A DNA stretch of 64,000 nucleotides from NCBI RefSeq assembly GCF_000025865.1, contig NC_014002.1, positions 1,364,001 through 1,428,000 of the forward strand, given 5' to 3'. The notes beneath the pieces are model-generated. The model was given only the letters and a program-made list of their open reading frames with translations, had not been told where the DNA came from and made no database searches. Shown here in pieces: positions 38,000 to 43,928 of this stretch; the first letter of the stretch is position 1, and every line of letters starts with the position of its first letter. Source of the stretch: Methanohalophilus mahii DSM 5219. Its GTDB lineage: Archaea > Halobacteriota > Methanosarcinia > Methanosarcinales > Methanosarcinaceae. The translations under genes were made by a program, and so were the position numbers.

Positions 38000-39604
38000 T
38001 CACTCTTTATCCTTTTTATCTTCCCGTATTTTTATGTCATTAATTGTTGCCCTTAATTTAGCCCTCTCTAACGGTAGCGACTCTTCTTGCAATTCCATAA
38101 ACAATGCTTTCAATAAGCAATAGAGCATCAAAAGCATGACTATCATGAAGGGGAAACCACCGATTACCGAAGCTGTCTGGAGGGCACCCAGTCCCCCGGC
38201 GAGTAGAAGAACCGCTGCAAACGCCCCTTCAAGACTACCCCAGATAATCCTCAGGGGGAGAGGAGGATTTGGATTGCCTTTAGAAGTCAGCATTCCTATG
38301 ACATAAGTACCTGAGTCTGAGGAAGTTATGAAAAAGATCGCTACTGAGAACATTGCAACTGCAATAAGGATGTCAGAGAAAGGAAAAAAACTGAGCATAC
38401 TGAAAAAACCAAGTGCAGAATCAACCTCAACAGCTTCAGCAATTCCACCGGCTCCGAAATGCTCGATGAACAGAGCAGATCCTCCAAAGATACTGAACCA
38501 TACCATACTGACAACTGTAGGAGCAAGCATTACCCCCACAACAAAACTTCTGATTGTCCTGCCTCTTGAAACCCTGGCAATGAATGATCCGACAAATGGA
38601 GCCCAGGCAATCCACCATGCCCAATAGAAGACAGTCCATGAGTCACCCCAGCCTTCAGCTCCTACTCCTGCAGGATCTGTTCCAAAGGACATCTGGAGCA
38701 AGTTTTGCAAATAACCCCCAACTGAATTAGTAAACAGCTCAAGGGTAAATAGCGTTGGTCCAAGAATGAATACCAGAATCATTAAAAGAGCGGCCACGCC
38801 CAGATTGATCTGACTCAACCATTTTATACCCCGGTCAATACCGGATGCTGTGGACATTATCGCAAGAATCGTAACAACAGTAATTATTAGTACCCATAAA
38901 GTAGGTCCGCTGGAATAACCGAATAAATTCTCAAGTCCGGCGCCTATTTGCATAACACCTAAACCAAGAGTTGTCGCAATACCAAACAGGGTTGCAAGCA
39001 CACCGATGGTATTAACAGCAATACCCCATTTTCCATCAATGCCCTCTCTTCCCAGGATAGGTTCCAGGGTAGAACTCAATAACATTGGCAATCCCTTCCT
39101 GTAGGAAAAATATGCTAATGAGCCCGCAACTACAGAATATATTGCCCAGGGGTGGAAGCCCCAGTGGAAGAAAGAATATCTCATGGCTGCATGCAGGGAT
39201 TCAGCTGTATTGGGTTGTTCATAAAGAGGCCACATATAATGCCATATCGGTTCTGAAACACCCCAGAAAAGGAGGCCAATACCCATTCCGCAACTGAAAA
39301 GCATGGCAAACCATGAAAGATTGGAATACGCAGGTTTTTCATAGTCCCCACCCAGTTTTATATCTCCAAGCGGACTTAGCATCAAATATACAATTAACAA
39401 TAAAAATATACTGCCACCAAACAGGAAAGACCAGCCAAGATTTCCAACCATCCAATTAAAAGTAAAATCCATATATTCCTCGAAGCGCTCTGAAAAGATC
39501 GTTCCGGCTAAAACAAATGCAACAGATAAAAATAACGACACCAATAGTGTCGGTGTCTTTAAAGTGTCTGAAAACTCTGTAAGTCCTTTTTGCATTTTTC
39601 TCAT
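38000..39604 (-). CDS. BCCT-family glycine betaine/choline/carnitine transporter
   Basis: A secondary transporter of quaternary ammonium compounds. The 534-aa product has 12 membrane segments and the BCCT signature (DSWTVFYWAWWIAWAPFVGS, ~residues 322-341), whose Trp box forms the trimethylammonium-binding site, followed by RVSRGRTIR. A short hydrophilic C-terminal tail is charged (KIREDKKDKE), as in osmotically activated members such as BetP. AAAGGAGG lies upstream of the ATG. It is divergent from the MtmB-like gene across 381 bp. Uptake of betaine as osmolyte or as a methyl substrate are both possible. Confidence 0.93.
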   Translation of the reverse strand: MRKMQKGLTEFSDTLKTPTLLVSLFLSVAFVLAGTIFSERFEEYMDFTFNWMVGNLGWSFLFGGSIFLLLIVYLMLSPLGDIKLGGDYEKPAYSNLSWFAMLFSCGMGIGLLFWGVSEPIWHYMWPLYEQPNTAESLHAAMRYSFFHWGFHPWAIYSVVAGSLAYFSYRKGLPMLLSSTLEPILGREGIDGKWGIAVNTIGVLATLFGIATTLGLGVMQIGAGLENLFGYSSGPTLWVLIITVVTILAIMSTASGIDRGIKWLSQINLGVAALLMILVFILGPTLFTLELFTNSVGGYLQNLLQMSFGTDPAGVGAEGWGDSWTVFYWAWWIAWAPFVGSFIARVSRGRTIRSFVVGVMLAPTVVSMVWFSIFGGSALFIEHFGAGGIAEAVEVDSALGFFSMLSFFPFSDILIAVAMFSVAIFFITSSDSGTYVIGMLTSKGNPNPPLPLRIIWGSLEGAFAAVLLLAGGLGALQTASVIGGFPFMIVMLLMLYCLLKALFMELQEESLPLERAKLRATINDIKIREDKKDKE

Positions 39605-39985
39605 TACATGCCTCCTTTAATAATTATAAGAAATACGCATATTATACATGCATAATGAAATTAATTGTCCGTGTAAATATGACCAAAAACACTTTGGTTT
39701 TACGCCTTAATTGAACAATAAAGTATCCTTCTATTATATATCTAACTTTTAGAAGTGGCGTATTTATATTAAATGAAACACAAAATTATTTTACTTATTT
39801 TTCAAAATGTATAATTATAAAATATATAGTTATCAAATAGTAGTATTAAATATTATGTACATATTATATTTGTTTATAATCTAACAAGCAATAAATATAA
39901 TTTAATGAAATTTTAGATGTTGCATGTAGATTATCAGTTATTGATATAAGGCAAAAAGTAGTAGGAAAGATAAGAGGTATGCTAA
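39605..39985. promoter_or_regulatory. Divergent control region between BCCT and MtmB-like genes
   Basis: An AT-rich 381-bp region with no gene. Two palindromes stand out: ATTATACATGCATAAT (39641-39656, one mismatched pair), 37 bp before the BCCT start, and ACCAAA-AACAC-TTTGGT (39682-39698, perfect). On the plus strand ATAAATATAATTTAATG near 39890 could be the TATA region of the methyltransferase gene, giving a 5' untranslated region of roughly 60 nt. Protein binding is inferred only from symmetry. Confidence 0.45.
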
Positions 39986-41359
39986 ATGTCAGACATATAT
40001 AAATATTTAAGAAACTCTTTTTCAGGTGAAGAAAAAAGTGAAGATGCACATAAGGAAGATGTTTTAAAAATATCCAACGAACTGGCTGCTGATTATGATA
40101 TAATAAAAGATGGTGAAGAATTCATACCATACGAACTTGATATGGCAGATGCTGTCTTTTCAGCAGCTATCGAACTTCTGACAAATGTGGGAATATACTG
40201 CACTGATACGGGCAGAACTATCCAGATCAATAACGATGAAATATTGAAGTCTCTTGGTACACCCAATGCCATGGACATCGGGAGATTCAAGGAAAAAATA
40301 AATGTTGTTAACAGGACAGAAATGGATTGCCAGCCCCCTGTGATTATAGGAGGACCAATGGGTGGAAAAGTTTCTGAGAAAAACTTCCTGAATATTCATA
40401 TCAGTTCTGCAATTGAGCCTATAGTCCAGGGACTCTATCCAGGATCCATGCAAACAATCAATGACGGCCCTATAAGAACCAAGACCCCAGAGGAAATGTT
40501 TGTAGCTTTAGAAGAAGCAAGACTTGAAAGAATGGCTACAAAAATAGCTGGCAGGGAAGGGTTGACCCTTGTAGGTCCGGCAACACCAAAAACATCACAG
40601 GCACATATGGTCGTGTCTTCAAATGAACTGTATTCAAGAAATGATATTCATGAGGTATATCAAGCTGATGACCTGAAAACAGACTTTGAAACATTTCATA
40701 AATCAATATTCCATCAGGAGCATGGGAATAATTTCATAAGTTGCCAGTGCCCCGTTCTGGGTAAAGATGCTATAGATACACCTGAAGCACTGGCAATTAT
40801 TGATGTTGCTGAAACCATACAATCCCGGCTGGTCACAAGTGCAAGCATACATGCCTGCGGAGCAATTGATTCGGCTACAAATTCCTCCTCTACTAAAGAA
40901 ATATTGTGGGCTTCAAATATTTCCTCGCTCGCTGTTTCGCGTAATATGCAGCATTCTACAGCAAAATACTACCGCAACGTTGCCGGGTGCTGTACTGACA
41001 TGATGTTCTATGAAACCGCAGCTCAGGCCATAGGTGATACGGTTTGTGGCAGAGAAATGTTGATCGGACCTCTTGGTGGTAGAGGAGAAAAAGTAGACCA
41101 TTCGACTGGCCTGGAATCAAGATTTATGGGCGAGGTGAGCAAGATGGGCCTGAATCTGGATCTGGCAGAGGCAAATGAAATTATCGAAATGCTCTATTCC
41201 AAATATGTAGACCGACTTTCAGATGCCCTGCAAGGAAAAGATTTCGAATCATGCTATGATGTGAATTCGAAATATGAAATGAAACCAACTGATGAATACA
41301 TGAATATGTATTCTGAAATTATTGGAGATATTGACGAATTTTATAGAGGTCTGTTTTGA
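39986..41359 (+). CDS. MtmB-family corrinoid methyltransferase lacking pyrrolysine
   Basis: A 457-aa homologue of monomethylamine methyltransferase MtmB across its full length: GIYCTDT (69-75; same in MtmB), GGPMGGKVSE (122-131), AGREGL (188-193), GCCTDMMFYETAAQ (334-347) and CYDVNSKYE near the end. In MtmB the catalytic amber-encoded Pyl202 lies in AGRPGMGV-O-GPET; here the aligned residue is Val196 in AGREGLTLVGPAT, and the gene has no internal TAG. It cannot use the Pyl imine mechanism on methylamine, so the substrate is probably different (inference). No corrinoid protein gene is adjacent. AGAGGTATG is a plausible ribosome-binding site. Confidence 0.88.
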   Translation: MSDIYKYLRNSFSGEEKSEDAHKEDVLKISNELAADYDIIKDGEEFIPYELDMADAVFSAAIELLTNVGIYCTDTGRTIQINNDEILKSLGTPNAMDIGRFKEKINVVNRTEMDCQPPVIIGGPMGGKVSEKNFLNIHISSAIEPIVQGLYPGSMQTINDGPIRTKTPEEMFVALEEARLERMATKIAGREGLTLVGPATPKTSQAHMVVSSNELYSRNDIHEVYQADDLKTDFETFHKSIFHQEHGNNFISCQCPVLGKDAIDTPEALAIIDVAETIQSRLVTSASIHACGAIDSATNSSSTKEILWASNISSLAVSRNMQHSTAKYYRNVAGCCTDMMFYETAAQAIGDTVCGREMLIGPLGGRGEKVDHSTGLESRFMGEVSKMGLNLDLAEANEIIEMLYSKYVDRLSDALQGKDFESCYDVNSKYEMKPTDEYMNMYSEIIGDIDEFYRGLF

Positions 41360-41426: not shown

Positions 41427-42071
41427 TCAACCTGTCAGCATCATCAGAAAACCTGAAAAAACAGGCAACAACAAGTTGTCATTTTTCATCAGGTTGAATG
41501 CCTTTTTTATTGAGGAATCCGTATTCAGGTCTCTGCCGATTATACTTTCCAGCAGCATACTTCCTGCACTTGCTACAAGTGCCTGCAGGAAAGAGACAAA
41601 AAGTGCTGCCCCTAAAAAGGCGGCTATTGAACCTGTAATTGTTCCTTCAACAGATTTGCTTTTGGAATAGGGTAATTTATGTTTACCGATCTTTTTGCCG
41701 GAAATTGTTGCGATCCCGTCGCCCATGGCAGTTATGGCTATCGAGGCATAGACGATAGAGATGGGAAAAAGCAATAACGATATGGCAATACCTATGTGTA
41801 ATAAAAATGTTGGTTTTAGAGGAATATAATTTTCATTTTCCCGACCCCAACATCTAATCAATTCATAAACCGGCCGGTAATGCATTCTATTAAGGATTAA
41901 AAGTGACACGATTACAAGAACATAAATTAATGCAAGTAAAACCAGCACTTCAAACGCAAAGGGTCCTGAGATATAAATAAGCGGGATATAAAGCAGACCG
42001 GATAGTATATGTATGGATTTGCGTACCAGATCACCTTTTAGATCTCTATCAATATTTTGTATCTCTGCCAT
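41427..42071 (-). CDS. Polyprenol/phytol/dolichol kinase-like membrane protein
   Basis: A 214-aa protein with about six membrane segments and the CTP-dependent lipid-kinase signature ITAMGDGIATISGKKIGKHK (~residues 111-130), followed by KSVEGTITG. These match the SEC59/phytol kinase/diacylglycerol kinase superfamily. The N-terminal DLVRKSIHILSGLLY is also typical. In archaea it may phosphorylate dolichol or geranylgeraniol for lipid or glycan synthesis. The ATG at 42069-42071 is preferred over a TTG seven codons upstream. Confidence 0.78.
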   Translation of the reverse strand: MAEIQNIDRDLKGDLVRKSIHILSGLLYIPLIYISGPFAFEVLVLLALIYVLVIVSLLILNRMHYRPVYELIRCWGRENENYIPLKPTFLLHIGIAISLLLFPISIVYASIAITAMGDGIATISGKKIGKHKLPYSKSKSVEGTITGSIAAFLGAALFVSFLQALVASAGSMLLESIIGRDLNTDSSIKKAFNLMKNDNLLLPVFSGFLMMLTG

Positions 42072-42224
42072 GTTCCAATGGCTTAAACTCAATAATTTGT
42101 AATGTACTTTTTGTTTTATCTTCCGATAGGAATTGCCGGACCGATTAATGACCGGATAAATCGAAGTTACATGACAACATGAGTCCCTAAGGATTCATGG
42201 CATACGCAAAACAGAGTTGGTTTG

Positions 42225-42899: not shown

Positions 42900-43903
42900 G
42901 GCTCTGTAGAAACCCTTTCCTCTAACTTCCACTAATACATTATTATTTTTATAAGAAGAGGTCCCCAATGTGATTTTGACCATAAAAAACACAAAGGGGA
43001 TGAATGTGTTTTGTCAAGCGATTACTTAAACTTTATCGATACAGCTATGTCTGTAGCTGGAAGATCTCATCTTCCAATCTACAGTTGTAAGTATTCCAAA
43101 CGAAAATATACTCAGCATCAGTTATTGACTTTGGTATTGGTCAAAGAGTACACAGGTAAGAACTATAGAGATGTTGTTAGACTTGTTGAGTTAATGGATA
43201 GAGTTCAGTCCAAGATTGGTATAAAACACGTACCTCACTTCACAACATTACATAAATTTACCAATAGAATATCTTCTTTCTATTTCAATAGCTTACTTCA
43301 CCAAACTCTGAAACTATTCTATTCACATGGTGAAAAAATACCTCTGATTGCTATTGATTCAAGTGGATTTACAGGTGGACATTGTAGTTACTATTATTCT
43401 GTGAGAACAGGAAAGAAAAGACGGTCGTATCTGAAAACAAGTATAGCTGTTGACGTTGAGAAGTTCATTGTAACTGGTTTTAAGATTTCAGGTAAGCCTG
43501 TGCATGATGCAAAGCATGCATTGACATTGCTTAGACAATGTCACAAAAGGAGAAAAGCTGATTGTTATCTGATGGATAAAGGATATGATTCTGAGAAGAT
43601 ACATGCTCTAATCAATGAAGAATTGAAAGCAGAAGCCATCATACCTGTAAGATGTAGAAAAAGGAAGAAGATCAAAGGAAAATATCGTCGAAAAATGAGA
43701 GATGAGTTTGATGAAGACATCTATCATTATAGAAACCTGGTAGAGACGATGTTTTCTGTTTTGAAAAGGAAGTATAGGGAAGAACTGAGGGCAACAAAAT
43801 ACAGAAATCAGGTCAAAGAGGTCAAGTTCAAATTATTAATTCATAATATAGATAGGGCTATCTCTGTTTCAATAATTATTCAAATGAGGATTTCTACAGA
43901 GCC
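42900..43903 (+). mobile_element. IS5-family insertion sequence (ISH1-type), complete
   Basis: A 1,004-bp element with terminal inverted repeats GGCTCTGTAGAAAYCCT (one mismatch in 17 bp) at 42900-42916 and 43887-43903. It is flanked by perfect 8-bp duplications. Eight-base duplications and this size are known for the ISH1 subgroup of IS5. It encodes one DDE transposase. The intact ends and perfect duplication indicate a recent insertion. Confidence 0.92.
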
Positions 43904-43928
43904 CATTTATAACACTCCCAATATATAA
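43011..43928 (+). CDS. IS5-family (ISH1-type) transposase
   Basis: A DDE transposase of 305 aa. The catalytic residues are visible in AIDSSGFT (first Asp), [12 protein letters not shown] (second Asp) and [16 protein letters not shown] (Glu, in the Y-(2)-R-(3)-E-(6)-K arrangement of IS4/IS5 enzymes). It starts at TTG 43011 after AAAGGGG; no in-frame ATG is available. The frame crosses the right inverted repeat and stops 25 bp into host DNA at 43926-43928, so the C-terminus depends on the insertion site. Confidence 0.92.
43904..43911. repeat. Right 8-bp target site duplication of the IS
   Basis: A second copy of CATTTATA. To its right lies the original upstream region of the DUF5371-pilin operon. 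Confidence 0.88.

Follow-up and report, generated by a model that had tools for sequence, protein, structure and literature searches.

The genome of Methanohalophilus mahii DSM 5219 contains, within the 64,000-nucleotide stretch that we analyzed (hereafter the window), a gene for a full-length relative of the monomethylamine methyltransferase MtmB in which the catalytic pyrrolysine (Pyl) is replaced by valine. A previous sequence-only reading of this DNA had stated that no characterized non-Pyl relative of MtmB is known. This statement has been superseded by MtqB (ACT9XH_RS04775) from Methanococcoides methylutens Q3c, a non-Pyl MtmB homolog that is encoded downstream of the corrinoid protein MtqC and has been termed the first such homolog with a demonstrated function (PMC13044021). 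MtqB removes methyl groups from tetramethylammonium (37 nmol/min/mg) and choline (42 nmol/min/mg) and possesses weak activity toward monomethylamine (PMC13044021, March 2026). The M. mahii locus poses the question whether its product is a further MtqB or an enzyme of a different kind, and on which type of substrate it might act.

The open reading frame begins with an ATG codon, terminates with TGA, and was free of in-frame TAG codons when the whole gene was scanned. Its product matches the Pfam family PF05369 with 456 bits (cut-off 25; E 1.6e-136; profile positions 2-447 of 450), and phmmer aligned residues 5-443 with MtmB 1L2Q (E 4.4e-67); the identity to MtmB of Methanosarcina barkeri (1L2Q, 1NTH) is 31%. 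No Pfam family other than PF05369 was reported for the protein, the MttB profile (PF06253) included, and the NCBIfam models matched neither this protein nor the MtqB-like protein tested. In the literature searched, we found no mention of Mmah_1399, the tag expected beside Mmah_1398. Since the M. mahii genome (2,012,424 bases) carries two Pyl-MtmB genes with one in-frame TAG each, the missing TAG in the window gene does not reflect a want of Pyl. The gene is under purifying selection: its orthologs in two Methanohalophilus congeners encode proteins of 94% and 93% identity, dN/dS among the three genes is 0.05-0.09, and third codon positions take 77-80 of the about 100-110 substitutions separating the window gene from these orthologs. 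Together with its retention across genera, these values rule out a pseudogene and contradict the neutral evolution that the sequence-only reading had named as the outcome that would speak against it.

Table 1. Features of the M. mahii locus (window coordinates)
Feature	Position	Strand	Evidence
BCCT transporter gene, 534 aa, GMGIG motif (betaine type), probably Mmah_1398	38000..39604	-	PF02028 613 bits; motif
Intergenic region common to the divergent BCCT and MtmB-like genes	39605..39985	.	
GAGGT, likely ribosome-binding site	39974..39978	+	Sequence; kept upstream of orthologs
Non-Pyl MtmB-family methyltransferase gene, 457 aa	39986..41359	+	PF05369 456 bits; AlphaFold2 model vs 1L2Q; no in-frame TAG; dN/dS
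Codon GTA, Val196, Pyl202 column	40571..40573	+	Alignment with 22 Pyl-MtmB sequences
Codon GAG, Glu223, equivalent of MtmB Glu229, kept	40652..40654	+	Alignment
Codon TGC, Cys253, equivalent of MtmB Glu259, lost	40742..40744	+	Alignment
Codon TAC, Tyr328, equivalent of MtmB Gln333, lost; Tyr in 31/33 of clade	40967..40969	+	Alignment
Codon CGC, Arg330; Trp in most of clade	40973..40975	+	Alignment
CTP_transf_1-like membrane protein gene	41427..42092	-	PF01148 20 bits, below cut-off

The segment AGREGLTLVGPAT of the window protein aligns with the Pyl motif AGRPGM..-O-GPETS, which places Val196 in the Pyl column, just as the sequence-only reading had it. Three further residues, Glu229, Glu259, and Gln333, which we take to surround Pyl in the MtmB structure, are invariant in 22/22 Pyl-MtmB sequences; one of them is kept in the window protein (Glu223) and two are replaced (Cys253 and Tyr328). 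In an alignment of 33 sequences of the clade to which the protein belongs (clade A, see below), the Pyl column is occupied by Met in 25, Phe in three, and Val in three sequences, with others in the remainder, and the 259 column mostly by Gly. Judged from this alignment, Val in place of Pyl, correct for the M. mahii protein, is a local variant and not a hallmark of the group, in which Met is commonest; the features common to clade A are the loss of Pyl, the loss of Glu259, and the gain of Tyr. Two positions beyond Tyr328, where the predicted strand that holds both residues ends, 28/33 sequences have Trp as residue 330; the Methanohalophilus and M. bombayensis proteins have Arg or His instead, and Arg330 might possibly contact a carboxylate.

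An AlphaFold2 model of the window protein was built on an alignment of 50 diverse family members (mean pLDDT 94, pTM 0.93), which we used instead of a run on the 28-sequence clade alignment (pLDDT 70, poor middle). Overlaid on MtmB 1L2Q, the model reveals an intact barrel fold (Z 59.1, rmsd 1.4 Å over 449 residues); the rebuilt active site that had been anticipated is evident from the alignment, with Cys253 for Glu259 and Tyr328 for Gln333. Its best matches in the PDB are the MtmB entries (Z 59, 1.4-1.5 Å, about 450 residues), a result with which Foldseek agrees, followed by MttB and MtgB at Z about 24. Membership in the MtmB fold and family is thus close to certain. We also considered a zinc-dependent reaction via the cysteines at the barrel mouth (Cys253, 255, 291, and 336); since the two congeners and most clade members have Gly in the position of Cys253, and 30/33 sequences have Ser in that of Cys291, there is no conserved set and this candidate was rejected.

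A maximum-likelihood tree of 61 PF05369 sequences places the window protein in clade A (28 distinct sequences, support 100/98), a separate and widespread non-Pyl clade of the type that the sequence-only reading had envisaged. The other groups of the tree are the Pyl clade (100/100), an MtqB-like clade (100/98), and two more non-Pyl groups. Mean identity is 68% inside clade A and falls to 30% against the MtqB-like group and 32% against Pyl-MtmB. Clade A extends over Methanohalophilus, Methanolobus, Methanococcoides, Methanohalobium, Methanosalsum, and a few uncultured lineages; it was found in most sampled Methanolobus and Methanococcoides, and none of the matches listed came from genomes of genus g13 (probably Methanosarcina). 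One genome of the same family (G081) contains five non-Pyl MtmB homologs of several groups (L153-L156), some of which adjoin MttB, corrinoid, or another BCCT gene.

For the comparison with MtqB, we used inferred orthologs (L133-L135; assigned by synteny and identity) and not the Q3c sequence itself. These are the Methanococcoides homologs positioned directly downstream of an MtbC-like corrinoid gene, the arrangement described for mtqB, whose orthologs share 78-87% identity among themselves (PMC13044021). Two of L133-L135 exhibit 77% mutual identity, while the clade A proteins of Methanococcoides share 87-97%. The window protein is about 30% identical to the inferred MtqB orthologs, and the two fall into separate supported clades (26-33% identity). 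Clade A is an uncharacterized Pyl-free clade within PF05369 that is distinct from MtqB; a prior characterization, which would have weighed against the sequence-only reading, exists for MtqB but not for the clade of the M. mahii protein. That the window gene is mtqB itself is not supported, given the identity of about 30%, the different clade, and the missing link to a corrinoid gene.

The most informative neighbor, left out of the sequence-only reading, is a divergently transcribed gene for a betaine-type BCCT transporter. The protein scores 604 bits against the betaine_BCCT model, below its cut-off of 650, and carries the GMGIG motif that is typical of glycine betaine carriers and differs in choline carriers (PMC6562126). 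The divergent BCCT/MtmB-like pair is present in six genomes, those of M. mahii, two more Methanohalophilus, M. bombayensis (L004), and two MAGs (L006, L007), in at least three chromosomal settings. The transporter itself, at an identity of at least 72%, occurs in 10/112 genomes of the family. Both in Methanohalophilus (3/8 genomes) and in Methanolobus (3/27), the genomes with the BCCT are exactly those with the window-type MtmB homolog (simple Fisher test, 0.018 and 0.0003, respectively, ignoring linkage and joint transfer). The five Methanohalophilus genomes that lack the pair possess at the same site gatD directly followed by pilin genes, which indicates that the genes for the BCCT, the MtmB homolog, and the CTP_transf-like protein were gained or lost together. 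An IS5-family transposase gene lies between the pilin and purP genes (window 43011-43928) and was not seen there in the related Methanohalophilus loci.

As the sequence-only reading had assumed, no corrinoid gene is present among the neighboring open reading frames called, mtqC included. Ten B12-binding_2 matches elsewhere in the M. mahii genome represent candidate partners; the corrinoid proteins of this species include two MtmC, two MtbC, MttC, a fused corrinoid/URO-D protein, and one encoded at 21 kb. A dedicated orphan MtqC-like protein was looked for in this genome and not found, so that the enzyme would have to make joint use of a corrinoid protein from another locus. In M. bombayensis, one clade A gene (L014) is located 41 bp downstream of a corrinoid gene whose closest matches in our set (45%) are MtqC-like, an arrangement that supports corrinoid dependence. 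The sole PF06253 match in the M. mahii genome is a TAG-containing gene (1669483-1670907). Since the MttB genes of M. mahii and of the other pair-bearing genomes are TAG-containing only, there is no MtgB-type betaine enzyme in these organisms.

Several further loci bear on the surroundings of such genes. In M. vulcani SLH33 (G102), a betaine-type BCCT gene directly precedes a non-Pyl MttB gene, with corrinoid genes nearby; at this locus (L223:11088-16390), a corrinoid-like gene, the BCCT gene, the non-Pyl MttB gene, and a second corrinoid gene follow each other on one strand, likely a glycine betaine demethylation cluster. The description of M. vulcani names betaine, choline, and dimethylethanolamine as substrates. 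By analogy, the window locus looks like this BCCT/MttB arrangement built with an MtmB-family enzyme. Clade A genes of Methanolobus are found beside MtbA and an MtmBC/MtbB cluster. In Methanococcoides (L008, L010-L012, L137-L140, L142, L143, L157, L159) and in Methanohalophilus G109 (L146), the clade A homolog forms a conserved same-strand cluster with the genes for an Orc1/Cdc6-like AAA protein and an HyuA-like protein. M. mahii possesses an HyuA-like gene with 46% identity to the Methanococcoides one (L206:5030-8952, minus strand; genome about 1,477,030-1,480,950), which adjoins genes for a fused corrinoid/URO-D protein, a thermosome-like protein, and URO-D proteins; we infer that HyuA-like proteins of this family may assist corrinoid methyltransferases. 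Another M. mahii locus (L205:6488-9594, minus strand; genome about 18.5-21.6 kb) encodes a divergent corrinoid protein, then an MtaA/MtbA-like protein and a histidine kinase; no gene for a first methyltransferase adjoins it.

Based on these data, we propose, at a probability of about 0.5, that the window gene encodes a methyltransferase that depends on a corrinoid protein and acts on an osmolyte of the quaternary-ammonium or a related onium type, imported by the BCCT transporter. A role in corrinoid methyl transfer is likely; the dependence on a corrinoid protein, the substrate class, and the partner proteins are what we infer for it. In the proposed route, the betaine-type BCCT would bring in the osmolyte, which would bind at the opening of the TIM barrel, in the place that the methylamine-Pyl adduct occupies in MtmB, within a pocket rebuilt around Val/Met196, Tyr328, and Arg/His/Trp330. 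The Co(I) of a corrinoid protein encoded elsewhere would then attack the methyl group, and MtbA would hand it to coenzyme M. Pyl might be dispensable because a quaternary nitrogen needs no further activation to act as a leaving group. The MtmB fold, the recurrent BCCT/MtmB-like pair, its joint absence from five congeners, the matching occurrence of the two genes in Methanohalophilus and Methanolobus, the GMGIG motif, the lack of an MtgB-type enzyme, the BCCT/MttB precedent in M. vulcani, and the MtqC-like corrinoid gene beside L014 all favor this proposal, as does the activity of the sole characterized non-Pyl MtmB, MtqB, on quaternary amines (PMC13044021). Against it stands the report that M. 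mahii does not grow on choline or betaine (PMC3017947), as do the missing linked corrinoid gene and MtqC-like protein. Moreover, most clade A genes are not positioned beside a BCCT gene, so that the link may inform on a subclade alone; neighboring genes can be transferred jointly without having a common function, and the BCCT may serve osmoprotection alone. The substrate may be dimethylglycine, DMSP, or another compound, and the enzyme may recycle osmolytes without supporting growth. Choline as a clade-wide substrate was set aside, because M. mahii is reported to be choline-negative (PMC3017947).

Among the other explanations, a functional equivalent of MtqB, acting on tetramethylammonium and choline, is unlikely. 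The reported choline-negative phenotype of M. mahii (PMC3017947) and a BCCT motif of the betaine and not the choline type count against it, as do the identity of about 30% to the inferred MtqB orthologs, the separate supported clade, Gln254 and Glu223 in place of Met and Leu/Thr, respectively, and the lack of an adjacent mtqC; the two proteins nevertheless share the Pfam family, the lack of Pyl, and Tyr at the Gln333 column, and an AU test did not reject a tree in which clade A, the MtqB-like group, and group D stand together on the Pyl-free side (p 0.128). It is slightly less probable still that the window protein assists MtmB by demethylating a simple methylamine without Pyl. Methylamine demethylation is considered to require Pyl, two genes for Pyl-MtmB are already present in M. 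mahii, and Glu259 and Gln333 are lost, although the setting of the Methanolobus clade A genes beside methylamine genes and the weak activity of MtqB on monomethylamine without Pyl (PMC13044021) point in this direction.

We give equally little credence to a sulfur compound (DMSP, dimethylsulfide, or methanethiol) as the substrate. DddT-type BCCT carriers import DMSP (PMC13270143), and in some clade A members the putative pocket is lined with Cys and Met residues, but no conserved Cys/His set able to bind zinc is present and M. mahii separately encodes an Mts-type corrinoid/URO-D fusion protein; DMSP, furthermore, overlaps with the onium-osmolyte proposal. We likewise doubt that the protein is a non-catalytic regulator or sensor related to MtmB. 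Such a role would fit the missing cognate corrinoid gene and the Methanococcoides cluster with Cdc6/Orc1-like AAA and HyuA-like proteins; however, the barrel and many MtmB-wide residues are conserved, and the HyuA-like family also adjoins the fused corrinoid methyltransferase of M. mahii, which points to catalysis.

More tentatively than the osmolyte proposal for the window gene, we suggest that clade A could represent a second kind of Pyl-free MtmB-family enzyme beside MtqB, which in halophilic methanogens without MtgB would, coupled to a betaine-type BCCT, directly demethylate an osmolyte such as glycine betaine, dimethylglycine, DMSP, or a similar compound and serve either methane formation or the recycling of compatible solutes. 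Methylated osmolytes feed much of the methane from saline sediments, and new enzymes acting on them directly continue to be discovered. Should our suggestion hold, clade A would constitute an additional Pyl-free group of enzymes that most of the sampled Methanolobus and Methanococcoides have retained, would widen the substrate range of organisms thought to be limited to methanol and simple methylamines, and would allow the origins of the Pyl-dependent and Pyl-free forms of one fold to be compared.

With MtmB (1L2Q, 1NTH), the window protein has the same full-length fold and the Glu229 equivalent in common, whereas Val, Cys, and Tyr are found at the positions of Pyl202, Glu259, and Gln333. With MtqB it shares the PF05369 fold, the lack of Pyl, and the Tyr at the Gln333 column; it differs from MtqB-like proteins by Gln254 (Met there) and Glu223 (Leu or Thr there), and its gene adjoins a BCCT gene instead of mtqC. 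The MtgB-type enzymes (2QNE, 9YCE) and the non-Pyl MttB of M. vulcani are, like the window protein, non-Pyl relatives of methylamine methyltransferases, yet they belong to another sequence family (PF06253; about 10% identity, Z 24). While the M. vulcani MttB gene has linked corrinoid genes and the window gene does not, each is located beside a betaine-type BCCT gene, and the logic of importing a compound and then demethylating it is likely common to both.
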